Positions 33,916 to 58,869 of a DNA stretch of 64,000 bases are shown here, piece after piece; positions within the stretch are counted from its first letter, which is position 1, and each line of letters starts with the position of its first letter. Position numbers and translations under genes: made by a program. The notes below the pieces were generated by a model, which searched no databases, was not told where the DNA came from, and saw only the letters and a program-made list of their open reading frames with translations. The DNA lies in NCBI RefSeq assembly GCF_039645995.1, contig NZ_CP147920.1, forward strand, positions 620,001 to 684,000, read 5' to 3'. Origin of the DNA: Sulfurimonas sp. HSL3-1. Its GTDB lineage: Bacteria; Campylobacterota; Campylobacteria; Campylobacterales; Sulfurimonadaceae.

Positions 33916-35244
33916 TTAGAGGATATAACGGGAGAGGTCTTCATCCTCGATGACGATGTCCAGTTTATCATGGACGATCGTTTTGCTGACGGTATAGATC
34001 TTCCCGGCGTAGGATTCGGCGTCAAAACTGATCTCTTCGAGCACCTTTTCCAAGATGGTGTGCAGACGTCTGGCACCAATGTCTTCGGTCTTTTCATTGG
34101 CCTGCTGCGCGAGGGCGGCGATGGCACGGATGGCGTCGTCATCAAATTCAAGGGTGACTTCTTCGACGGCGAGCAGCGCCTTGTACTGTTTTATCAGCGA
34201 GTTCCTCGGCTGGGTGAGGATGGAGTAGAGCGCCTCTTCGTCAAGGGACTGCAGCTCGACGCGAAGCGGAAAACGCCCCTGAAGCTCGGGGATAAGGTCG
34301 CTGGGCTTGGTCAGGTGAAAGGCCCCGGCGGCGATGAAAAGGATGTGGTCGGTTTTGACCGGCCCGTACTTGGTGCCGACGCTGCTCCCTTCAACGATAG
34401 GCAGCAGGTCGCGCTGTACCCCCTCTTTGCTGGGGTCGTTGCGACCCTGACTCTTGGCGCTGACGGCGATTTTGTCGATTTCGTCGAGGAAGATGATGCC
34501 GCCGTCTTCCGCGCGGCGTACGGCCTCGCTTCGGATGGCGTCCATGTCCAGAAGCGCTTCGGTCGCTTCGCTGTCGAGGATACGGATGGCATCGGAGACT
34601 TTCATCTCCTTTTTGTTCTCTTTTTTGTTGATCGAACTGAACATTTTGGCGAAGGATTCCTGCATCTTCGCCATCTCCGGCGGCATGCCGCTGTCGTTGA
34701 ACTCGATATTTCCCTTGGGGAGCTCGATCTCGATGGTTTTGTCGTTCATCTCGCCGTCAATGACCCTCTGCCGCATCCGTTCGCGGGAGGAGGCATATTC
34801 GGCTTTCTTGGTCTCCGAGGAGAGGGGTGGCAGCGGCGGCAGCAGCTTGTCGACGATCTTGTCGAGGACGTACGCTTTGATCTTCTCTTCGTTTGCCGCT
34901 TTCTGCTCCTCTTTGACGAGGGCGATGGAGGTCATGACGAGATCGCGGACCATCGATTCGACGTCGCGGCCGACGAACCCGACCTCCGTGAATTTGCTCG
35001 CTTCGACCTTGATGAAGGGGACGCCCATCATCTTGGCCAGTCGGCGGGAGATCTCCGTCTTTCCGACCCCGGTTGAACCGATCATCAGGATGTTCTTGGG
35101 CATGATCTCCTGCTGCATCTCGCCATCAAGCTGCATACGGCGGTAACGGGTGCGCAGGGCCAGGGCGATGCTCTTTTTCGCGGCCTGCTGGCCGATAATG
35201 TAGGCATCGAGGTAGGAGACGATCTCGTTGGGGGTCATGTTCAT
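33916..35244 (-). CDS. hslU: HslU, ATPase subunit of the HslVU protease
   Basis: A 442-residue AAA+ unfoldase that feeds substrates into HslV. ATG 35244 overlaps the hslV stop by ATGA. It starts [19 protein letters not shown] and has Walker [17 protein letters not shown], the pore motif region near [14 protein letters not shown], an intermediate domain (about 110-220), Walker [13 protein letters not shown], and a C-terminal helix ending DLSRYIL, the tail that docks into HslV. Length is normal. Confidence 0.97.
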
Positions 35245-35786
35245 GCTTCCGAGGCCTCCAGGGTAAGGATTTTGATCTCGTGGTTGGTGTAGATGCAGAG
35301 GTCCGCCGCGATATGCAGGCTCTCCTCGACGAGGGACTCGGGTGTCATGTCCGCATGCTTTTTCAGGGCACGGGCGCTGGCGATGGCGTAGTTTCCGCCG
35401 CTGCCGATGGAGGCGATTTGGCCATCCTCGGGCTCGACGACGTCGCCGTTGCCGGTCAGGATGAAGATGTGCTCTGTGTTGAGGACGATCATCATCGCTT
35501 CCAGACGCCGAAGGACCTTGTCTTTCCGCCACGCTTTGGAGAAGTCGATGATGGCCTTGACCATGTCCCCCTTGCGTGCGGAGAGGAACTCCTCGAACAT
35601 GTCGAAGAGGTTGAAAGCGTCCGCCGTGGAGCCGGCGAATCCGGCGAGGACCTGGCCGTTGTGCAGTTTGCGGATCTTGGTGGCGTTGTTCTTTAAGACG
35701 GTGTGCCCGAAGGTGACCTGCCCGTCCCCGCCGATGACCGCCTTGCCCTCACCCTTGTACGCGAGGATCGTCGTTGCGTCGAACAT
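35241..35786 (-). CDS. hslV: HslV, peptidase subunit of the HslVU protease
   Basis: A 181-residue threonine peptidase forming the two-hexamer core. The start [12 protein letters not shown] implies removal of a four-residue propeptide to expose the catalytic Thr of [12 protein letters not shown] and [14 protein letters not shown] are family signatures. The start overlaps the rplI stop (TAATG) and the end overlaps hslU, so all three are coupled. Confidence 0.96.
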
Positions 35787-47062: not shown

Positions 47063-50000
47063 ATGGCGCTCAAAGTCGTAATCTCCCACAAAACCGCTTA
47101 TCAGTATGACCGTTACGTGTCGCTTTCGCCGCATACCATTCGTTTGCGCCCCGCGCCGCACAGCCGGACGCCGATCGAGGCGTACTCGCTCAAGATCAAG
47201 CCGGAGAACCACTTTATCAACTGGCAGCAGGATCCCTTCGGCAACTACCTCGCCCGTATCGTTTTCCCGGAAAAGACGAAGGAGATGAGCATCGACGTCG
47301 AGATCATCGCCGACCTGATCACCATCAACCCTTTCGATTTCTTCGTCGACGAGTATGCGCAGGACTTCCCGTTCAAGTACAAGCCGGCGCTGAAAAAGGA
47401 GCTGCTGCCCTACCTGGAGATTACGGACAAAGGCAAAAAGCTCAAGACGTTCATGGAGTCGCTCGACCTGAAGACGAAACGCAATATAAACGACTTCCTC
47501 GTCTACCTCAATACGGAGATCCACAAGTACCTCGACTATACGATCCGGCTCGATCCGGGCGTGCAGACCTGCGAAGTGACCCTGGGCAACAAACTCGGCA
47601 GCTGCCGCGATTACGCCTGGCTCTTCGTGCAGGTACTGCGCCACCTGGGACTCGCGGCGCGTTTCGTCTCCGGCTACCTCGTCCAGCTCACCGCCGACGT
47701 CAAATCCCTCGACGGCCCGAGCGGCCCGGAAGCGGACTTTACGGACCTGCACGCCTGGACGGAGGTCTACGTCCCGGGGGCGGGGTGGATCGGCCTCGAC
47801 GCTACAAGCGGCCTCTTTGCCGGGGAGGGTCATATCCCGCTGGCGTGTACGCCCCATTACGACAGCGCCCATGCCATCGACGGGGCGACGGACAAATGCG
47901 AGACGGAGTTCGATTACTCCAATACCGTCACGCGGATCTTCGAATCGCCCCGGGTCACCAAGCCCTACCGTGATGAACAGTGGGAGGCGATCTACAATCT
48001 CGGGTTCGAGGTCGACAGGGAGCTCGAAGCCAACGACGTGCGTCTCTCGATGGGGGGCGAGCCTACTTTCGTCTCCATCGACGACATGGAGTCCGAGCAG
48101 TGGAACACCGAAGCCGACGGCGAACACAAGCGCGAACGCGCAGACGTCCTTGCGCACCGGCTGCTGGGGACCTTCGGCAAAGGCGGGATGCTGCACTACG
48201 CCCAGGGGAAATGGTACCCGGGCGAACCGCTGCCGCGCTGGCAGAAATCGGTCATCTGGCGCAAGGACGGCAAGCCGATCTGGCGCAACCCGAACCTTTT
48301 TGCCGACATGAACGCGACCTACAGCTATACGACCGAAGATGCGAAGCGTTTTATGGAGCTGCTGTCGCTGACGCTGGGCGTGAGCGACAAGAATATTGTC
48401 GAAGCCTATGAAGACCCCGTCTACTACGTCGTCAAAGAGGCCGAGCTTCCCATCGACGTCGATCCGGCGAAGTTCGACCTGGATGACCCGCTCGAGCGCC
48501 GTACCCTGGCGCAGCTGCTGCAGCAGGGGTTGGCCAACCCGGTCGGCTATGTGCTGCCGCTGGGCTACGGCCAGACCCGCTGGATCACCTCGGCATGGGA
48601 GTTCCGCCGCGGGAAACTCTTTCTCAGTGCGGGGAACTCGCCGCTGGGCCTGCGGATGCCGCTGGAGTCGCTGATGGCCAAACCCCATGTGGAGCTGGCG
48701 CAGAACTTCGAACCCGACCTTTTTGCGGAGTCCCCGGCACTGGGGGATTACCTTGACGATGCGCGGGCACGCTGCGAAGCGGCGACCCCGGAAACGACGG
48801 AGGCGAACCGTTACGACGCCTTCGTGCGGACGGCGATCAGTACGGAAGTGCGCGACGGCAAACTGTATATTTTCCTGCCGCCGCTCAACCACACCGAGGC
48901 TTTCCTGGACCTCATGGCCTCCATCGAGGCGGTCGCGGCGAAGCTCAATGTCAAAGTCGTCCTCGAAGGGTACGAACCGGCCCATGATAACCGCATCGAG
49001 CGCATCAAAGTGACCCCGGACCCGGGTGTCATCGAGGTCAACATCCATCCGGCGAAGAACTGGAGCGAACTGACCGAAACAATGCTGGGTCTTTATGAAG
49101 ACGCGCGCCAGTCCCGCCTGGGGACGGAGAAGTTCATGGTCGACGGCAAGCATACGGGTACGGGCGGGGGGAACCACGTCACGATCGGGGCGATGACGCC
49201 GCACGACAGCCCGCTGCTGCGCCGCCCGGAACTGCTGCGAAGCCTTATCACTTTCTGGCAGCACCACCCCTCCCTGAGTTACCTCTTCTCCGGTGCTTTC
49301 ATCGGCCCGACCTCCCAGGCGCCGCGCGTCGACGAAGGGCGCGCGGAGAACCTCTACGAACTGGAGATCGCCTTTGCGCAGATCCCCGAAAACGGAGAGG
49401 TGCCCTACTGGCTCACCGACAGGCTCTTTCGCCATATGCTCACCGATATCACCGGCAATACCCACCGTTCCGAGTTCTGTATCGACAAGCTCTACTCGCC
49501 CGATTCAAGCACCGGGCGGCTGGGGATCCTGGAACTGCGCGGTTTCGACATGCCGCCGCATTCGCAGATGGCCCTGATGCAGATGCTGCTGGTGCGTACC
49601 CTGGTCTCGCTCTTCTGGCGAAAGCCCTACCGCCACAAGCTGGTGCGGTGGGGGACCCAGCTGCACGACAAGTTCCTGCTGGAGCACTACGTCAAGGAGG
49701 ATATCGCGGATATTGTCCGCTTCCTCAATTCCGAGGGGTATCCCTTCGAGCTGGACTGGTTCGATCCCTTCTTCGAGTTCCGCTTCCCGCTTTACGGCAT
49801 GGCGACGGTGGAGAATGTCCATCTCGAACTGCGCGCGGCCATCGAACCGTGGAACGTCCTGGGAGAAGAGAGCGGATCGCAGGGGACATCGCGCTATGTC
49901 GATTCGTCGCTGGAACGGGTCCAGGTGAAGATCAACAACTTTGTGCCGGAGCGCTATGTACTCACCTGTAACGGGGTCGCGGTGCCGTTGAACCCGACGG

Positions 50001-50434
50001 GCGTCGAGGGCGAGTTCGTCGCCGGGGTCAAGTACAAAGCGTGGGAGCCGTGGTCGGCGCTGCACCCGACGATCGGGGTCGACACCCCGCTCACGTTCGA
50101 TGTCGTCGACCGCTGGAACCAGCGCTCCATCGGCGGGATGACCTACTACGTCTCCCACCCGGGCGGCCGCAGCTACGACACCTTCCCCGTCAACAGCTAC
50201 GAGGCGGAGTCGCGCCGTATCAACCGTTTCTGGGGCTTTAATCATACCCAGGGCAGTGTCGATGAGGTGCCGACCCATGTGGTCGAACAGGCGCTGCCGG
50301 CAGGGGAGCGGGAAGTGACGCGCAAAGTGGCCGAGAAGCACGCCGGCGACAAGGTCTTTGTCTTCCAGGAGCTGCCGCGCAGCGCCGAGTATCCCCATAC
50401 GCTGGACCTTAGACGGAAATGGACACGGGTGTAA
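47063..50434 (+). CDS. Transglutaminase-like protein fused to DUF2126
   Basis: An 1123-residue protein. The N-terminal 80 residues are the beta domain that precedes bacterial transglutaminases ([18 protein letters not shown]). The transglutaminase/protease core shows the catalytic Cys in [18 protein letters not shown] (Cys about 181), His in [12 protein letters not shown] and Asp in GLDATSG. From about residue 310 to the end is DUF2126 ([40 protein letters not shown]), whose His- and Asp-rich motifs suggest a metal or nucleotide site. In known neighbourhoods such proteins accompany circularly permuted ATP-grasp ligases. It ends directly before the ATP-grasp start (TAA ATG). Confidence 0.92.
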
Positions 50435-52927
50435 ATGGGGATTTTCGACCGTTATTTTTCCGAAAGCTCCTTTGACGAGATGGTCGATGCGCAGCGGCAG
50501 TGCCGCCCGCATTGGCAGGCGATCTACGACCAGATCGAGGCGACCGGCATCGAGGGGCTGAAAGCCAAACAGGCCGAGCTGGACTGGAGCCTCGAAGAGA
50601 ACGGCGTCACCTACAACGTCTACGACGCCCCCGACGGAATCACCAAACGGCGCTGGACGCTCGATCCCATCCCCTTCGTCGTCACCCAGACGGAGTGGGA
50701 CGGCGTCGTCAAGGGGCTGCGTCAGCGCGCGAAGCTTTTCGACCTGATGCTGCGCGACCTTTACGGCGACCAGCTTCTGCTGCGGCAGGGGATCCTGCCC
50801 GCCGAAGTCGTTTACGCCCACAAAGGGTACGCGGCGGAGATGTTTGGTTTCGGGCACAAAATGGATTTCGAACTCTTCTTCTACGCAACGGACATGGCGC
50901 GGGGCCCCGATGGCAAGTTCTGGATCGTCAATGACCGGATCCAGGCCCCGTCGGGCCTCGGTTACGCCGTCGAGAACCGCCTGAGCATGAACATCATTGC
51001 CAAATCACTCTATCCGGGGGTGCATACCCGCCGGCTCGCGGGCTTCATCGAAGAGATGAAATCGATGATCGACCGTCTCAGCGGGGGGGACCGCTCCAAG
51101 GCGGCCCTGCTGACGCCGGGGCCGCACAACGAAACCTATTTCGAGCACGCCTATCTCAGCTCCCTGCTGGAGATCAGCCTGGTGCAGGGCGAGGATATGC
51201 TGGCCAAGGACGGGGCGCTGTGGCTGAAAAACCTGAGCGGCCTCACAAGGATCAACACCCTGCTGCGCCGCGTGGACGACCGCTACTGTGATCCGCTGGA
51301 GCTGAAAAACGATTCGCACCTGGGTGTGGCGGGCCTGGTCGACGCGGCGCGCCGGGAGAACCTGGCGATGATCAACCCCATCGGCAGCGGTATCCTCGAG
51401 AACCTCGGCTTCAACCCCTTTATGAAGAACATTGCGAAGTTCTTCCTCGACGAAGAGCTGATCCTGCCGCAGATCGCCACCTGGTGGTGCGGGCAGCCCG
51501 GCGAACTCGAATACGTTCTCGAAAACCTCGAAGGGCTTATTGTCAAGCACATCGACCGCACGGAGAGCGCCAAGGTCTATTTCGGACGGAAAATGGACGC
51601 AGCGGAGCTCGATGCGCTGAGGGCGCAGCTGAAGGCGGCGCCGCACCTCTACGTGGCACAGGAGGAGATCGGCTTCTCCACCGTACCCTATTTTACCGGG
51701 GAGTCCGTCGAACCGCGCAACGCCGTTATTCGCTCCTATGCCTTCAAGCGCGGCAGCCAATACTGGGTGATGAACGGCGGGCTCGTGCGCGTCGCCTCGC
51801 AAAAAGACGCCTTCTTGATCTCCTCGCAAAAAGGGGGCACCAGCAAGGACCTCTGGATCGTCGGCGAAGATGAGGAGCGCGCGCCGAGCAATCCCTTCAA
51901 ACAGCTGCCGTGCATCGACGCCTCCATCGACCAGATCCCGACCCGCAGGGCGGAGAACCTCTTCTGGCTGGGGCGTTACCTCTCGCGTGCCATTATCACG
52001 ACGCGCCTCATCCGCTACACGGTCAAGCGCCTTATCAACGTCTACCGCGACGAGTCGAACACCGCCGGGGAGTCGCAGCACCAGCTGCTGCGCGCCATTA
52101 CCCACATGACGATGACCTATCCGGGATTCCTGGATAAGAAAAAGGCCGACAAGCTCCTGGAGAACCCGATGAAAGAGATCGTCTCCGTCCTCAAAGAGCA
52201 GAACCGGTCCGGGTCGCTCTCCTTTACCCTGGCGATGCTGTCGGGTTCGAATGTCAGCATCAAGAACCTGCTGGGCATCGAAGCGTGGAAACTCTTCGAC
52301 AAGCTCCAGTGGGAGTGGCAGAGCTTCTGCAGCGCCAATACCCGCATGAACCGCACCATCGTCAACGAGATGGACAAGCTGCATGTAAACCTGCTGGCGT
52401 ACAAGGAGCTCGTCGAAGAGAGCATGTTCCGCGAGCAGGGCCTGGTGCTGTACGACATCGGTTACCGGATCGAGAGCGTCCAGCTGCTGATCTCCAAGGC
52501 GCGCTCCCTGCTCTGCCCGCGCCAGGAGAAGGCCGAGGAGTATGAACTGCTCGAAGCGCTGCTGAACACCTGCGAAAGCTTCAACGCCTACCGTGCCCAC
52601 TACCGCAGCGCTTTGCAGCTCGAGAACGTCATCGAGTTCCTGCTGCTCAATCCGCAGTATCCCAAATCGCTGACCTACCAGACCCAGAAACTGCTCTCGG
52701 ACCTCAAAGACCTGCCGAAGTCGCGTACCCACCTGACCGAGTATGAGGCGCCGATTTTCCAGGCCTATTCGCGCCTGAAGCTTGCGACGGCGCAGGCGCT
52801 GCTGACCTATGAGGAGTCCGACGGCATCTACAAGGAGCTCGATGCACTGCTCTCGGAGCTTTCCGAGCTCTTTATGAAGGCTTCGGACGAGTTTTCGAAA
52901 ACCTATTTTTCCCATTACGACGAGTGA
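50435..52927 (+). CDS. Circularly permuted ATP-grasp ligase fused to an alpha-E domain
   Basis: An 830-residue fusion. Residues about 1-480 are a circularly permuted ATP-grasp domain (DUF404/DUF407 type): LMLRDLYGDQLLLRQGILPAE, FWIVNDRIQAPSGLGYAVEN, TPGPHNETYFEHAYLS, and VLENLEGLIVKHIDRTESA. Such domains activate a carboxylate with ATP and join it to an amine. Residues about 510-830 are the all-helical alpha-E (DUF403) domain starting RRAENLFWLGRYLSRA. Alpha-E domains nearly always occur beside these ligases and may bind a partner or substrate. It lies between two transglutaminase-like genes and overlaps or abuts both. Confidence 0.92.
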   Translation: MGIFDRYFSESSFDEMVDAQRQCRPHWQAIYDQIEATGIEGLKAKQAELDWSLEENGVTYNVYDAPDGITKRRWTLDPIPFVVTQTEWDGVVKGLRQRAKLFDLMLRDLYGDQLLLRQGILPAEVVYAHKGYAAEMFGFGHKMDFELFFYATDMARGPDGKFWIVNDRIQAPSGLGYAVENRLSMNIIAKSLYPGVHTRRLAGFIEEMKSMIDRLSGGDRSKAALLTPGPHNETYFEHAYLSSLLEISLVQGEDMLAKDGALWLKNLSGLTRINTLLRRVDDRYCDPLELKNDSHLGVAGLVDAARRENLAMINPIGSGILENLGFNPFMKNIAKFFLDEELILPQIATWWCGQPGELEYVLENLEGLIVKHIDRTESAKVYFGRKMDAAELDALRAQLKAAPHLYVAQEEIGFSTVPYFTGESVEPRNAVIRSYAFKRGSQYWVMNGGLVRVASQKDAFLISSQKGGTSKDLWIVGEDEERAPSNPFKQLPCIDASIDQIPTRRAENLFWLGRYLSRAIITTRLIRYTVKRLINVYRDESNTAGESQHQLLRAITHMTMTYPGFLDKKKADKLLENPMKEIVSVLKEQNRSGSLSFTLAMLSGSNVSIKNLLGIEAWKLFDKLQWEWQSFCSANTRMNRTIVNEMDKLHVNLLAYKELVEESMFREQGLVLYDIGYRIESVQLLISKARSLLCPRQEKAEEYELLEALLNTCESFNAYRAHYRSALQLENVIEFLLLNPQYPKSLTYQTQKLLSDLKDLPKSRTHLTEYEAPIFQAYSRLKLATAQALLTYEESDGIYKELDALLSELSELFMKASDEFSKTYFSHYDE

Positions 52928-52929
52928 GC

Positions 52930-53877
52930 ATGATTTACGATATTTTCCACGAAACGGTCTTCCATTATCAGAGTCTGGTCACCTTCAGCCACAACATCGC
53001 GCGGCTGAAGCCCAAAGAGGGGCGGGAGCAGGAGCTGCTCTCCTTCCGGCTCGACGCGGAGCCGTACGCGTCGGAGATCCATGCCTTCGTCGACATGTTC
53101 GGCAATACGAACCACCATCTGCTGCTGCGAGAACCGCACACCTCCCTGACGGTGACGGGGCATGCACGGGTACGGCGCAAAATCCAAGAGGTGCACCGGG
53201 CGATCGAACGGCTTCGAAAAGGGGCCGTCTCCTATGAAAAAGCGCTGCAGCGCCTTTCGGGCTTCAATACGCGTGACATCGCCGCCAAGCAGTTCCTTTT
53301 CGCGTCGGAACTTGTGCCCGTCGATATCGCGCCGCTGCGCGACTACGCCCTGGAGTCTTTCCATCCGGATCGCAGCCTTTTCGAGGCCGGCGAAGAGCTG
53401 ATGGGGCGCATCTTCGAAGACTTCGAGTTCAATCCCGCTTTCAGCGACCTGACGACCCCCGTGACGACGATTTTCGAAGAGAAAAAGGGGGTCTGCCAGG
53501 ATTTCGCGCATCTGGCCCTCTCCGCGCTGCGCTCCATGGGGCTGCCGGCGCGCTACGTGAGCGGCTACATCGAGACCATCCCGCCCGAAGGCACGGAGAA
53601 GCTCTTCGGTGCGGACGCGTCGCACGCCTGGGTGTCGCTCTACGTCCCGGGGAGCGGCTGGCTCGACCTCGACCCGACGAACAACATCATTCCCCTGGAG
53701 CAGCACATCGTCATGGGGCATGGACGGGACTATGACGATATCTCGCCGCTCAAAGGGGTGGTGCGCGGGAGCGGGCAGAGCCGGCTCAGCGTCCGCGTGG
53801 ACGTTCGGCGCGCCACTGAGGAAGATGAAGAAACGGCACCTACCCAGACACAGTCACAGTCGCAATCGTCGAAGTAA
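52930..53877 (+). CDS. Transglutaminase-like cysteine protease
   Basis: A 315-residue protein with the N-terminal beta domain (YDIFHETVFHYQSLVTFSHN) and a transglutaminase-like core: catalytic Cys in GVCQDFAHLALSALRSMG, His in ASHAWVSLYVPGSG and Asp in LDLDPTNN. It lacks DUF2126, unlike the first transglutaminase gene. ATG 52930 or GTG 52924 are possible starts; both lie at the end of the ATP-grasp gene, so it is translated with it. The Gln/Ser-rich tail is probably disordered. Likely an amidase or peptidase of this pathway. Confidence 0.9.
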   Translation: MIYDIFHETVFHYQSLVTFSHNIARLKPKEGREQELLSFRLDAEPYASEIHAFVDMFGNTNHHLLLREPHTSLTVTGHARVRRKIQEVHRAIERLRKGAVSYEKALQRLSGFNTRDIAAKQFLFASELVPVDIAPLRDYALESFHPDRSLFEAGEELMGRIFEDFEFNPAFSDLTTPVTTIFEEKKGVCQDFAHLALSALRSMGLPARYVSGYIETIPPEGTEKLFGADASHAWVSLYVPGSGWLDLDPTNNIIPLEQHIVMGHGRDYDDISPLKGVVRGSGQSRLSVRVDVRRATEEDEETAPTQTQSQSQSSK

Positions 53878-53893: not shown

Positions 53894-54826
53894 CTAATGG
53901 ATCTTCGCGATGCGGTAGGCGACGGCATTCTCGAAGATCAGCGAGTGCATATAGATACAGGTGATCATGCCGTCGCAAGGGGCGAGGAAACGGTGGACGA
54001 CTTCGCCCTCTAAGGCGTGAACGATCTTGCCGATCGTCTCATCCTTGGAGACCGTCGTCCCGGGTTTCTGCGTCGGGATAAAGATCCCGCTGCGGGGGCT
54101 TTTGATGACCTCGATGCGTTCGCGGGTCACGACGGTCGAGTTGTAGCCGTTAAATGCCTCGTATCGGATGATGCCGCTGTGGCTGAGGAAGTTGATGAGA
54201 CTATCCATGATGACCCGGGCGGATGCGGGGTCGATCAGGGGCTCGTGGGGGCAGACCACGGAACACGCCTTGGCCCCCCAGAGCTGCCAGTTGTACTGCA
54301 GCGACACCGTCTCGATGGATTCGGGTTCGCGGTGGTGGATGACCTTGAGCCCCAGCCAGCGGGCGCTTTTCACATCTTCGTAGCCGGTCTTGAAGAGTTT
54401 GACGTAAGGCAGACAGGTGGCAAGGTCGGTCCGCGTCTCCAGAATAATGCCGTAGTCGTAGTCCTGGACCGCTTCGAAGAGGCGGTGGGCGATGCGCTGC
54501 GTCGTTTCGCCCTCGTTGTACCCCGGGAACATCATGTTGATGTCGGTCTTGTCCAGGGGCCAGAAACGTTCGTTGATGTTGAGGGCGTAGTGGTTGACGG
54601 AGGGGATGACGAGGATATTGCCCAGGATCTTTTCGCTTCCGAGTTTGTTGCGTAGGAAGTCGACCAGCTTCGACGCGCTGTACAAGGGCAGGGTCGTGGC
54701 CCCCTCCATGGCGCCGATGACGGCGACGCTGGGGGCGTCGGGATCGCTCCCTTCGAAGAGGTACCCCTCGACGACCATCGGCGCGCGGCTGAGGGATTCG
54801 AGTTTCAGGATCTCAATTTTTTTCAT
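53894..54826 (-). CDS. Aspartoacylase-family protein lacking zinc ligands
   Basis: A 310-residue homologue of the AstE/aspartoacylase (M14-like) family. Its neighbour at 54813 has the zinc motif GIHGDE, but here the same place reads GAMEGATT; the later DIHSS (third zinc ligand) reads LETRTD; DLNRAFPG reads DINMMFPG; and the catalytic-Glu region VVEMGVG reads SVVCPHE. So no zinc centre is evident. The fold and C-terminal beta domain (KSPRSGIFIPTQKPGTTVSKDE) remain, suggesting a binding or regulatory partner rather than a hydrolase. It overlaps the intact paralogue by 14 bases. Confidence 0.85.
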   Translation of the reverse strand: MKKIEILKLESLSRAPMVVEGYLFEGSDPDAPSVAVIGAMEGATTLPLYSASKLVDFLRNKLGSEKILGNILVIPSVNHYALNINERFWPLDKTDINMMFPGYNEGETTQRIAHRLFEAVQDYDYGIILETRTDLATCLPYVKLFKTGYEDVKSARWLGLKVIHHREPESIETVSLQYNWQLWGAKACSVVCPHEPLIDPASARVIMDSLINFLSHSGIIRYEAFNGYNSTVVTRERIEVIKSPRSGIFIPTQKPGTTVSKDETIGKIVHALEGEVVHRFLAPCDGMITCIYMHSLIFENAVAYRIAKIH

Positions 54827-55769
54827 CGCTCTCTCCGAAAATCCGTGCGAGCAGGGACCCTTCGTAGACGACGGGGTACTCGCGCAGGGTGAACAAAACG
54901 CCGCCGTTGGGGGCGTAGAGGGATTCGCGCACCGCCCCGCTGAGGGGGTCGACGATGTCGCCGATCCACTGCTCCTTCTCGATCACTTCGCAGTGGTCAA
55001 GGGCAGGGACAAAGAGGCCGGCGGCGGGGGCGTTGATGTAGAACACCTCCCCGACCTCGGAGGTGAACGGCTCGCGGACCTTGAACTCCGTCGGGGTCTC
55101 GATGATCCCCTCGCGCTGCATCAGATTCAGGATCCCCCGCAGGAGCTGGCGCCCGTAGGCCTTTGTCAGACGCATCCCCACCCCCATCTCGACGACGAGG
55201 GTTTTCGTCCCCCGCTCGTTCATCGTATGCGAAAAGGTCGCTTCGAGGACCGTGACGGCGTCGTGGATCCAGATGAAGTCGCAGTTGAGCTGTTTGGCCA
55301 GGGGGAGGGTCGCTTCCGAGAACGCCTTGTTGATGCGGATCTGCGGGATCTCGCGCAGGAAGATGTTGGAGGAGTGGATGTCGATGGCGATGTCGCTGCC
55401 TTCGACGTCTTCGGCCAGGGCATGCACCACCTGCGCGGGCAGGAAGTCGTTGCGCGCCCCCGGGAAAGCGCGGTTAAGGTCGATCTCGTAGAGGGGGAAG
55501 CCGCGGATAATGGTGTCGACCCCCAGGGAGTTGACGGCGGGATAGATGTCAACGGTCCCGCGCAGGGCTTCGGGATGCTCGCGCAGCCATGCGGCCAGGA
55601 GGTAGATGACGAGCTGCCCTTCGAGCTCGTCGCCGTGTATCCCGCTGACGACGCTGATGCGCTTGGCGTCCGGGCGCACTTTTTCCGGTGCGAAACGGGC
55701 GCGCTGGATGCGCAGCGTCTCTCCCACCGGGAGCTCGGAGGAGAAGATTTCCGTGATTTCCGGGTTCAT
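54813..55769 (-). CDS. Succinylglutamate desuccinylase/aspartoacylase-family hydrolase
   Basis: A 318-residue zinc hydrolase: VVSGIHGDELEGQL (His and Glu ligands), LYEIDLNRAFPG (substrate-binding Arg), IDIHSSNIFL (third ligand) and VVEMGVGMRL (catalytic Glu). A C-terminal beta domain (AAGLFVPALDHCEVIEKEQ) is typical. Family members remove acyl or aminoacyl groups from amines. It sits between an alpha-E gene and the degenerate paralogue, so it may cut the product of the ATP-grasp ligase; the substrate is unknown. Confidence 0.9.
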   Translation of the reverse strand: MNPEITEIFSSELPVGETLRIQRARFAPEKVRPDAKRISVVSGIHGDELEGQLVIYLLAAWLREHPEALRGTVDIYPAVNSLGVDTIIRGFPLYEIDLNRAFPGARNDFLPAQVVHALAEDVEGSDIAIDIHSSNIFLREIPQIRINKAFSEATLPLAKQLNCDFIWIHDAVTVLEATFSHTMNERGTKTLVVEMGVGMRLTKAYGRQLLRGILNLMQREGIIETPTEFKVREPFTSEVGEVFYINAPAAGLFVPALDHCEVIEKEQWIGDIVDPLSGAVRESLYAPNGGVLFTLREYPVVYEGSLLARIFGESDEKN

Positions 55770-55771
55770 TT

Positions 55772-56428
55772 TCAGTAGACGACGAGCTCGTCGATGAGGG
55801 CGTTGATGGCGTCGAGGTTGGCCTCTTCGTCGGTTCTGGAGATGGCAAGTTTCGCGTCGGGCGCGATCTTTTGCGCCGTCTGCAGAATGTTGTTGAGGTA
55901 CTCGATGGGCTCTTTCCCGTCCTTGCCGTGACGGAGGTGGAGGTCAACCTTTTCGGTCAGCTTGCCCAGGCGGACGAAGTGGTCGCTTTTGCAGCGGATC
56001 AGGCCGCGGTTCATGCTGCCCCAGATCTCGTTGATCAGGGAGAGGGCATCGTCGACGAAGCGGTAGTCGACGAAGACGGCGCTTTTCGAGGCGTGGTCGA
56101 AAAGATCGGCGAGGTGGATCGTCTCGCCGAAGGCGTCCGTATCGATATAGGCCCGTGAGATGATCGCGTTTTCGCGGGCGAAACGCATGATCTCCGCCAG
56201 GTTGGAGGGGTGGTCCCCGAAGATGGCGTTGTCAAGGAACTGGGAAGCGTTGGCGTAGTCGAGTTCGATCTCGAGGTGCTCGAAATAGCGCCTCCCGGCG
56301 TCCTTGTCCGTGTCGATAACGCAATCGAAGATTTCGATAACGTCAACGAGGGTTGTTTCGACGCGCTGGAGGTGGCGTCCGAACCAGTAGAGGTTGGTGG
56401 CGACGTTGGTGCTCAGCAGTTGATCCAT
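55772..56428 (-). CDS. Alpha-E domain protein (DUF403), short copy
   Basis: A 218-residue all-helical protein. ATG 56428 follows the ATP-grasp stop by one base; frames open further upstream only by overlapping that gene. It starts STNVATNLYWFGRHLQRVE, the alpha-E signature, and ends EEANLDAINALIDELVVY. It is closely similar to the protein at 58048 over the whole shared length. Function unknown; by neighbourhood it assists the ATP-grasp enzyme. Confidence 0.88.
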   Translation of the reverse strand: MDQLLSTNVATNLYWFGRHLQRVETTLVDVIEIFDCVIDTDKDAGRRYFEHLEIELDYANASQFLDNAIFGDHPSNLAEIMRFARENAIISRAYIDTDAFGETIHLADLFDHASKSAVFVDYRFVDDALSLINEIWGSMNRGLIRCKSDHFVRLGKLTEKVDLHLRHGKDGKEPIEYLNNILQTAQKIAPDAKLAISRTDEEANLDAINALIDELVVY

Positions 56429-56429
56429 C

Positions 56430-57794
56430 TTAGAGCTCCATGACCCATGTATCTTTGAACCCGCCGCCCTGGGACGAGTTGACGAGGTAGTTGCCCGCTT
56501 CCATCGCATAGCGTGTCAGCCCGCACTCCCAGACATTGACCTTCTCGCCCATGACGACATAGGCGCGGAAGTCCGCCTTGCGGGGACTCAGCTCCCCGTT
56601 GATGAGACACTCTTCGTCGTAGAACTCAACGAGCTCCTGGGCGATAAAGCGGCGGGGGTTGGCCTCGATGATCGTTTTGAGGTCATCGAGCTGGATCTTG
56701 GACATGGCGTGTCCGAACATGACGCCGTACCCGCCGGCTTCTGCGACATCCTTGACAACGAGTTTGTCAATGTTGTCGAAGATGTATTTTTTGTCCTTTT
56801 CGAAATAGGGGAGGTAAGTCGGCGCGTTATGCATGATGGGCTCTTCGTTCAGGTAGTATTTGATCATTTGCGGCACAAAGTAGTAGATCCCTTTGTCGTC
56901 CGCGACTCCATTGCCGACGGCGTTCATGATCGCCACGTTGCCCGCGAGGTAGGCTTCGATGATACCGGGTACGCCGATGAGACTTTCGGGGTTGAAAAAC
57001 TTGGGGTCGAGGAAATCATCGTCAAGGCGGCGGTAGACCGCCCCGACGCGGATGCGTCGCCCGTCGTAGTTTTTAAAGTAGAGGACCTTGTTCTCCACGA
57101 CCAGTTCGGCGGCGCGGACCAGTTCGGCCCCGATCTCTCCGGCGAGGTAGCTGTGTTCGTAATACGCGGAGTTGTAGCGCCCCGGGGTCAGAACGACGTT
57201 GATGCCGCCGGTATTGACGTAATCCATCGCGTTGCGCAGGTACGACGAGTACTGCTTGATCGGTTCGATCTTCAGCTCTTCGAAGAACTCCGGGTAGATC
57301 TTGCGGTAGGTGTCGCGGATGGAGAGCGGATAGCTCGCCCCGCTGGGCACGCGCAGGTTGTCCTCGAGGATGACCCATTCGTCGTTCTTGGTATCCTTGA
57401 CGAGGTCGATGCCGTTGATATGGGTCCTGATCTTCTGCGACGGGGAGAAACCGACGAACTCCTTGAGGTACCCTTTGGCCTGGTGGATAAATGCTTCGGG
57501 GACGATGCCGTCCTTGACGATCTTGGCCTCGGTATAGAGGTCTTCTAGGAAGAGGTTCAGTGCCGTGATGCGCTGCTCGAGGCCGCGCTGCATCTTGCCG
57601 AACTCCTCCTTGGAGATGATGCGGGGAATGACGTCGAAGGGGAGTGAACGCTCGATGAAATTGCCGTCTTTATAGAGATTGAAATTGACAGCGAACTTAT
57701 CCATATAGCGCTGAAACTCTTCGACTTTCTGTCGATCCTGCCGGGAAAAAATCTCCCAGAACTTTTCGTGTAGTTTTCCAGTTTCTTCTATCAA
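56430..57794 (-). CDS. Circularly permuted ATP-grasp ligase (stand-alone)
   Basis: A 454-residue DUF407-type ATP-grasp protein without the fused alpha-E domain seen in the rightward operon. Motifs: LFLEDLYTEAKIVKDGIVPE, VILEDNLRVPSGASYPL, LTPGRYNSAYYEHSYLA, NAVGNGVADDKGIYYFVP and NSSQGGGFKDTWVMEL at the end. The missing domain is supplied by the next gene (alpha-E at 55772). The start at 57794 has a leader of about 60 bases with TTTATAC near 57868-57873. The gap 57795-58047 shows no gene. Confidence 0.9.
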   Translation of the reverse strand: MIEETGKLHEKFWEIFSRQDRQKVEEFQRYMDKFAVNFNLYKDGNFIERSLPFDVIPRIISKEEFGKMQRGLEQRITALNLFLEDLYTEAKIVKDGIVPEAFIHQAKGYLKEFVGFSPSQKIRTHINGIDLVKDTKNDEWVILEDNLRVPSGASYPLSIRDTYRKIYPEFFEELKIEPIKQYSSYLRNAMDYVNTGGINVVLTPGRYNSAYYEHSYLAGEIGAELVRAAELVVENKVLYFKNYDGRRIRVGAVYRRLDDDFLDPKFFNPESLIGVPGIIEAYLAGNVAIMNAVGNGVADDKGIYYFVPQMIKYYLNEEPIMHNAPTYLPYFEKDKKYIFDNIDKLVVKDVAEAGGYGVMFGHAMSKIQLDDLKTIIEANPRRFIAQELVEFYDEECLINGELSPRKADFRAYVVMGEKVNVWECGLTRYAMEAGNYLVNSSQGGGFKDTWVMEL

Positions 57795-58047: not shown

Positions 58048-58869
58048 CTAAACCACAACCAGGTTCTCGAAGAGGTCGTTGATAGCATCGAGGTTGGCCT
58101 CATCATCTTTTTCGTCGATGGGCATCTCCGCCTCCGGGGCGATCCGCTGCGCAGTGATGAGAATATTGTGCAGGTAGACGACCGATTCATTGCCGTTCTT
58201 GCCGTGGCGCAGGTGCAGGTCGACTTTCTCGGTCAGTTTGCCCAGGCGGATGAACTGGTCGCTTTTGCGCCGCAGAAGACCGCGGGCCATGATCCCCCAC
58301 ACCTCGTTGATGAGTGAGAGTGCATCCCCGATGAAACGGTAGTCGACCTTGGTATCGGTCTTGGCATAGGTGTCGAGGAGGTTGTAGAGCCTGATCGTCT
58401 CCCCGAAGGCTTCCGCGTCGAGATAGGGACGGCAGATGATGGCGTTTTCTCGGGCGTTGCTCATAATGGTGGCGAGGTTTGCGGGGTGGTCGCCGAAGAC
58501 GGCCTTTTGAAGGAAATCCTGCGCGCTCTTGTACTCCAGCTCAATGTCCAGATGCTCGAAGTAGCGTACGCCGGCTTCTTTGTCCGTGTCAATCACCGCG
58601 TTGAAGAGCTCCAGCACGTCGATCAGGGTCGTTTCGACGCGCTGGAGGTGGCGGCCGAACCAGTAGAGGTTGGTGGCGACGTAGGTGGTGAGCAGCTGGT
58701 GTTTATGACTGTGCTGGGGCCAGGTTTCGACAAACTTTATGCTCGGGTACTGCCGGTAGTCGGCATAGCCGTTAAGATAGTCTCGGAGCCGTTTAAAAAG
58801 GGTGATGGCGTTGAACGTCCAGAGATGCTTTGGATCTCGGTCGACGGGGGGAACATGTACTGCGTTCAT
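58048..58869 (-). CDS. Alpha-E domain protein (DUF403), long copy
   Basis: A 273-residue protein. Residues about 60-273 match the alpha-E protein at 55772 closely (TYVATNLYWFGRHLQRVE, GDALSLINEVWG, LGKLTEKVDLHLRHGKNG). The N-terminal extension of about 58 residues (NAITLFKRLRDYLNGYADY) is absent from the other copy. Stretches of DNA are nearly identical between the two genes, pointing to a fairly recent duplication. It is followed after about 250 bases by the stand-alone ATP-grasp gene on the same strand. Confidence 0.88.
   Translation of the reverse strand: MNAVHVPPVDRDPKHLWTFNAITLFKRLRDYLNGYADYRQYPSIKFVETWPQHSHKHQLLTTYVATNLYWFGRHLQRVETTLIDVLELFNAVIDTDKEAGVRYFEHLDIELEYKSAQDFLQKAVFGDHPANLATIMSNARENAIICRPYLDAEAFGETIRLYNLLDTYAKTDTKVDYRFIGDALSLINEVWGIMARGLLRRKSDQFIRLGKLTEKVDLHLRHGKNGNESVVYLHNILITAQRIAPEAEMPIDEKDDEANLDAINDLFENLVVV

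Follow-up and report, generated by a model that had tools for sequence, protein, structure and literature searches.

Why would a bacterium keep, directly behind the gene for a zinc-dependent hydrolase, a second gene of the same family whose product has lost the residues for metal binding and catalysis? The question is raised by two genes, here called A and D, in a 64,000-nt window of the Sulfurimonas sp. HSL3-1 genome (the window being the whole stretch of DNA that was analysed; the coordinates in Table 1 are positions within it). Both products exceed the cut-off of 25 bits for the Pfam profile AstE_AspA_cat (PF24827), A with 58.6 and D with 35.4 bits, and A carries the motifs HGDE, DLNR, DIH and VVEMG. 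The same genome encodes a third, ordinary member of the AstE/AspA family in which HGDE and DLH are intact (G000:C1:1134453-1135262). A sequence-only reading of the window had described A and D as an active and a degenerate copy overlapping by 14 bases, and the overlap is indeed there (Table 1). A ribosome-binding site, GGAGAG, lies inside A, 7–8 nt upstream of the ATG of D. Among relatives, the stop of A usually overlaps the start of D, the shared stretch being 4 bp or, in the window and in its close relatives, 14 bp.

Table 1. Features of the window referred to in the text.
Feature	Position	Strand	Basis
A: AstE/AspA-type zinc amidohydrolase, 318 aa, intact site	54813..55769	-	PF24827, ligand residues, AlphaFold2
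D: AstE/AspA-fold pseudoenzyme, 310 aa	53894..54826	-	PF24827, ligand tally, AlphaFold2
Overlap of A stop and D start, 14 bp, ATGAAAAAAATTGA	54813..54826	-	Sequence
Alpha-E domain protein, third from operon end	55772..56509	-	PF04168 (42.3 bits), conserved neighbour
Circularly permuted ATP-grasp, predicted amide/peptide ligase, upstream of Alpha-E	56430..57794	-	PF14403 (444.7 bits), conserved neighbour
Second Alpha-E, upstream of operon	58048..58869	-	PF04168 (46.4 bits), syntenic in congener L034
Converging cluster: long transglutaminase-type protein, ATP-grasp/Alpha-E fusion, transglutaminase	47063..53877	+	Frames, profiles, synteny
HslV-like proteasome-fold gene	35241..35786	-	Adjoins AAA+ ATPase frame
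AAA+ ATPase frame, downstream of HslV-like gene	33916..35532	-	Read as HslU

From what is known of the AspA/AstE family, we take H45, E48 and H132 of A to be its zinc ligands, E194 its catalytic glutamate and R100 the arginine that meets the substrate. In an alignment with homologues, D has E41, T44, E130, V191 and M98 at these positions, respectively, leaving it without both histidine ligands, the glutamate ligand, the catalytic glutamate and the substrate arginine. The motifs that the sequence-only reading quoted for the two proteins are all present, and its pairing of DLNR (A 97–100) with DINM (D 95–98) stands. The other three pairings were out of register by one or two residues: opposite HGDE (A 45–48) lies EGAT (D 41–44) rather than MEGA, opposite DIHSS (A 130–134) lies ILETR (D 128–132) rather than ETRTD, and opposite VVEMG (A 192–196) lies SVVCP (D 189–193) rather than VVCPHE. 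Its conclusion that D has lost the zinc ligands and the catalytic glutamate survives the correction.

Orthologues of D that keep the ligands, which the sequence-only reading had named as counting against its claim, were sought, and none was found. Either histidine is kept in none of 130 aligned D rows and the catalytic glutamate is replaced in every one of them (these are rows, not independent genes, and the sets that make them up partly overlap for Campylobacterota), and all ligands and the catalytic glutamate are kept in 78/78 aligned A rows. The D rows comprise 30 from a protein search in Campylobacterota, 80 loci found by searching D patterns in GTDB genomes of Campylobacterota, Bacillota, Bacteroidota and Spirochaetota, and 20 Lachnospiraceae genes reached via A. 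MFPGY and GETTQRIA seem invariant in the 80 loci, but the same patterns were used to find those loci. Since the 20 genes reached via A include GPATSRIA, GDTTQQIA and MFPGD variants, we do not call either motif invariant in the family. The loss of ligands is unaffected by this search bias; they are absent from all 20 of the genes reached via A, which were chosen without any D motif.

What replaced the lost residues differs between lineages. Outside Campylobacterota, all 63 rows have arginine for the first histidine and tyrosine for the catalytic glutamate, with the glutamate ligand and the substrate arginine kept; the second histidine has become alanine, threonine or proline, rarely serine or arginine. 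The pocket of Campylobacterota D is more degraded, with the glutamate ligand and the substrate arginine mostly gone. There, the first-histidine and glutamate-ligand positions are variable, some rows have histidine at the latter, the catalytic glutamate position is valine or isoleucine, and the second histidine is replaced by glutamate in 65 of 67 rows. That glutamate and the occasional histidine are what speaks for D being an ordinary hydrolase whose catalytic metal is held by other residues, a reading that we consider very improbable, as no consistent ligand set runs through D and the catalytic glutamate is lost everywhere. With no invariant histidine or cysteine across the aligned D, the alternative metal site that the sequence-only reading had likewise named is unlikely, and a conserved one was rejected on this ground. 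D could instead be an enzyme whose site has been rebuilt for a new activity that needs no metal, as the uniform arginine, glutamate and tyrosine of the 63 rows and the strong D-specific constraint described below would suggest. We think this improbable too: arginine/glutamate/tyrosine outside Campylobacterota against variable/variable/valine or isoleucine inside leaves no shared catalytic set, and the lack of an invariant cysteine or histidine weighs against this reading as well. The status of D as a conserved pseudoenzyme is well supported.

The fold has been kept along with the gene. AlphaFold2 monomer models have a pLDDT of 89.3 for A and 89.8 for D, and the D model matches 3cdx and DoeB (6twm) with Z 29 over 292–294 residues, C-terminal domain included, as the sequence-only reading had anticipated in stating that D retains the fold. 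For the A model, the best Foldseek match is 3cdx and the top matches are as for D; structures of CphZ are close to both models. The D model is weak at about residues 81–110 (block means 52–67), a stretch that ranks with the best conserved of the protein. Since the corresponding stretch is weak in the A model also, it may be a plain flexible active-site loop; that a partner or ligand orders it would be a guess.

A tree of 67 proteins places A, D and the ordinary AspA-like proteins each on one side of a fully supported branch (support for the A and D clades, 100/98 and 100/99), and Campylobacterota separate from the other phyla within both A and D. Each of the two is thus a single clade with the same phylum split, from which we conclude that the pair arose once, before reaching these phyla through descent or transfer. 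Distances among A proteins correlate with those among D proteins (r = 0.89, a value reached in none of 1,000 permutations), as is expected of genes that travel together. Genes of one operon share their history, so neither matched trees nor linkage proves that A and D touch.

Purifying selection acts on D. Compared with two congeners, D has dN/dS values of 0.04 and 0.11, which are not those of a pseudogene; the values for A are 0.04 and 0.07. Across 54 paired rows, positions fixed in D and variable in A include R14, W89, E107, R111, F117 and W183, and the reverse class, fixed in A but not in D, consists of the ligand and catalytic residues and what surrounds them. The list of D-constrained positions falls partly inside the search patterns (M99–Y103, G106–A113), and these stretches are variable among D genes found by a route that did not use the patterns; W89 and the NWQ of residues 179–181 are kept in 20/20 D genes reached via A, and W183 is not. 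For D as a functionless, decaying duplicate speak its rate of evolution, some 1.2 times that of A, and one relative, described below, that has a collapsed operon with a truncated D. With dN/dS of this order, D-specific constraint, and an intact frame and linkage to A across four phyla, decay is scarcely credible, and we rejected it on dN/dS and linkage.

That linkage is close. In Campylobacterota (397 genomes searched, lists matched by eye), D adjoins A in 43/43 A orthologues, and in Lachnospiraceae (200 genomes of the family to which the Mediterraneibacter genome L109 belongs, counted by eye, some genomes contributing two A copies) in 56/56. An adjacent D thus accompanies A in all 99 cases, yet one intact D was found without A: the Lachnospiraceae genome L148 has D at L148:4316-5230 (- strand), with no A orthologue found and the usual operon neighbours absent within about 4–5 kb. 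D may be able to act without A, or the assembly may be incomplete. Every orthologous pair that was examined repeats the ligand loss and the adjacency, so the observation goes beyond chance, and the A–D pair is old and conserved, spanning at least four phyla.

Some loci in these searches depart from the usual arrangement. At L154:3889-5519 (+ strand), a truncated ATP-grasp gene runs directly up to a D gene that is itself truncated and begins at MFPGY, and Alpha-E, transglutaminase and A are missing, through a deletion or an assembly join. Seven genomes from the Lachnospiraceae family search (G533, G535, G541, G574, G578, G655 and G687) have two A–D pairs on separate contigs. The A frames of G700, G533 and G541 from the same search and of G163 from Campylobacterota each have one in-frame stop (TAA, TGA or TAG) within the matched or open part; broken frames or faults of assembly may account for these stops.

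As D has been kept as the neighbour of A despite its lost residues, it is most likely a non-catalytic partner rather than a decayed gene. The sequence-only reading had proposed a heteromer in which D regulates or targets A. The gene overlap, the matching trees and the linkage of each A found to a D fit this proposal without proving contact, and we think it probable, though well short of certain, that D serves A as a dedicated pseudoenzyme subunit. The main competitor is that D forms no complex with A and is a non-catalytic binding protein, for example a carrier or sensor, for the ATP-grasp protein, the Alpha-E protein or their product. D is retained with the whole operon and not with A alone, it occurs once without A, and its pocket outside Campylobacterota, with the substrate arginine kept and an arginine at the zinc-histidine position (63/63), might accommodate a carboxylate or another anion. 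On the other side are the absence of any A without an adjacent D among the 99 cases and the usual overlap, by 4 or 14 bp, of the A stop with the D start, and we regard a binding protein independent of A as rather unlikely.

The neighbouring genes suggest what a subunit pair of this kind might act on. In the window, the operon runs ATP-grasp, Alpha-E, A, D, an order conserved in relatives. At most loci of other phyla and at some of Campylobacterota, Alpha-E and A are separated by a transglutaminase-like gene; in the window, transglutaminase genes are confined to the cluster that converges on A–D. The converging arrangement of transglutaminase, ATP-grasp/Alpha-E and transglutaminase recurs in many Campylobacterota, and it adjoins A–D in many, not all, relatives. 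Two Alpha-E genes flank the ATP-grasp gene of the window (Table 1); the upstream one is also present in the congener L034, and none of the other Campylobacterota loci compared showed a second Alpha-E copy in this position.

ATP-grasp, Alpha-E and transglutaminase proteins are known to accompany Anbu in an operon proposed to serve peptide synthesis, with Anbu as the peptidase (PMC6376114, PMC5666114). The operon described here has ATP-grasp and Alpha-E in the same order, with the transglutaminase type third at the loci that carry it there, and likewise ends on a hydrolase gene; it differs in that the A–D pair takes the slot of the Ntn-hydrolase Anbu. We rejected an Anbu encoded elsewhere in the genome: no Anbu gene was found there, and the only proteasome-fold gene is the HslV-like gene of Table 1, which lies alongside an AAA+ ATPase frame, the two being read as HslV–HslU. 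Pull-downs gave no stable complexes of Anbu with the other proteins of its operon (PMC6376114), so contact between the products of such operons is not a given.

Among characterized enzymes, the full-length fold is shared with DoeB/EutE, the N-acetyl-L-2,4-diaminobutyrate deacetylase (6TWL/6TWM; for D, Z 29.0, 3.1 Å over 294 residues), and A retains its H..E..H ligands, catalytic glutamate and DxNR. In contrast to DoeB, D has neither the metal site nor the catalytic residues, and the operon setting is different; against the DoeB equivalog TIGR02994, A (41.2 bits) and D (38.9 bits) score far below the cut-off of 402.7. The cyanophycin dipeptide hydrolase CphZ (8EIN/8EIP) likewise shares family and fold with both proteins. 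It is an isopeptidase/isoaspartyl dipeptidase whose substrate stems from the product of an ATP-dependent ligase (PMC10206079). D has no described counterpart in the CphZ system, and a link to cyanophycin was rejected for this genome, in which the cyanophycin synthetase domain PF18921 was not found.

Inactive proteins of this general kind are known elsewhere. The carboxypeptidase-like CPX-1, CPX-2, AEBP1/ACLP and domain III of carboxypeptidase D have an M14-type fold from which the zinc ligands have been lost; they are eukaryotic and belong to a different M14 branch, and they are not known to share an operon with an active counterpart. Closer to the arrangement proposed for A and D is the trypanosome AdoMetDC with its prozyme, a proven heteromer in which a dead paralogue activates the active enzyme (PMC5201418). 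The AdoMetDC pair differs from A–D in fold and reaction, and its heteromer is established where that of A–D is proposed; the A–D genes are adjacent and overlapping. The literature searched contained no account of the A–D pair or of a bacterial AspA-family pseudoenzyme; the 2009 amidoligase paper by Iyer and colleagues was outside its coverage.

In the model that we favour, with D as a dedicated subunit of A, A would be a zinc-dependent amidohydrolase of the AstE/AspA/DoeB kind, probably active, that removes or trims an amide, the product of the ATP-grasp ligase in its own operon. It would thereby hold the place that the Ntn-hydrolase Anbu has in the Anbu operon, and might do its job. D, translated right after A via the gene overlap and retaining the whole fold, would most likely join A in a hetero-oligomer. 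A substrate or signal would be bound there by the dead pocket of D and by a rebuilt rim made up of W89, the FPG loop, the helix of residues 106–117 and YNWQ at 178–181, and D would set the activity or specificity of A. More tentatively, and as a possibility that we hold to be doubtful, the operon may be a multi-phylum system for writing and erasing amides, in which the Anbu slot has gone to an obligate enzyme/pseudoenzyme heteromer and D, with arginine for the zinc histidine and tyrosine for the catalytic glutamate, is a ligand sensor that licenses A to cleave the ATP-grasp product.

Pairs of an enzyme and a dead paralogue are best studied in eukaryotes. A–D offers a bacterial example that is compact and has hundreds of relatives, a conserved order and a clear active partner, and it would allow a direct test of how the dead member of such a pair controls the other. 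The chemistry known for this hydrolase family, from DoeB and CphZ, also narrows what the product of the ATP-grasp/Alpha-E operon may be.
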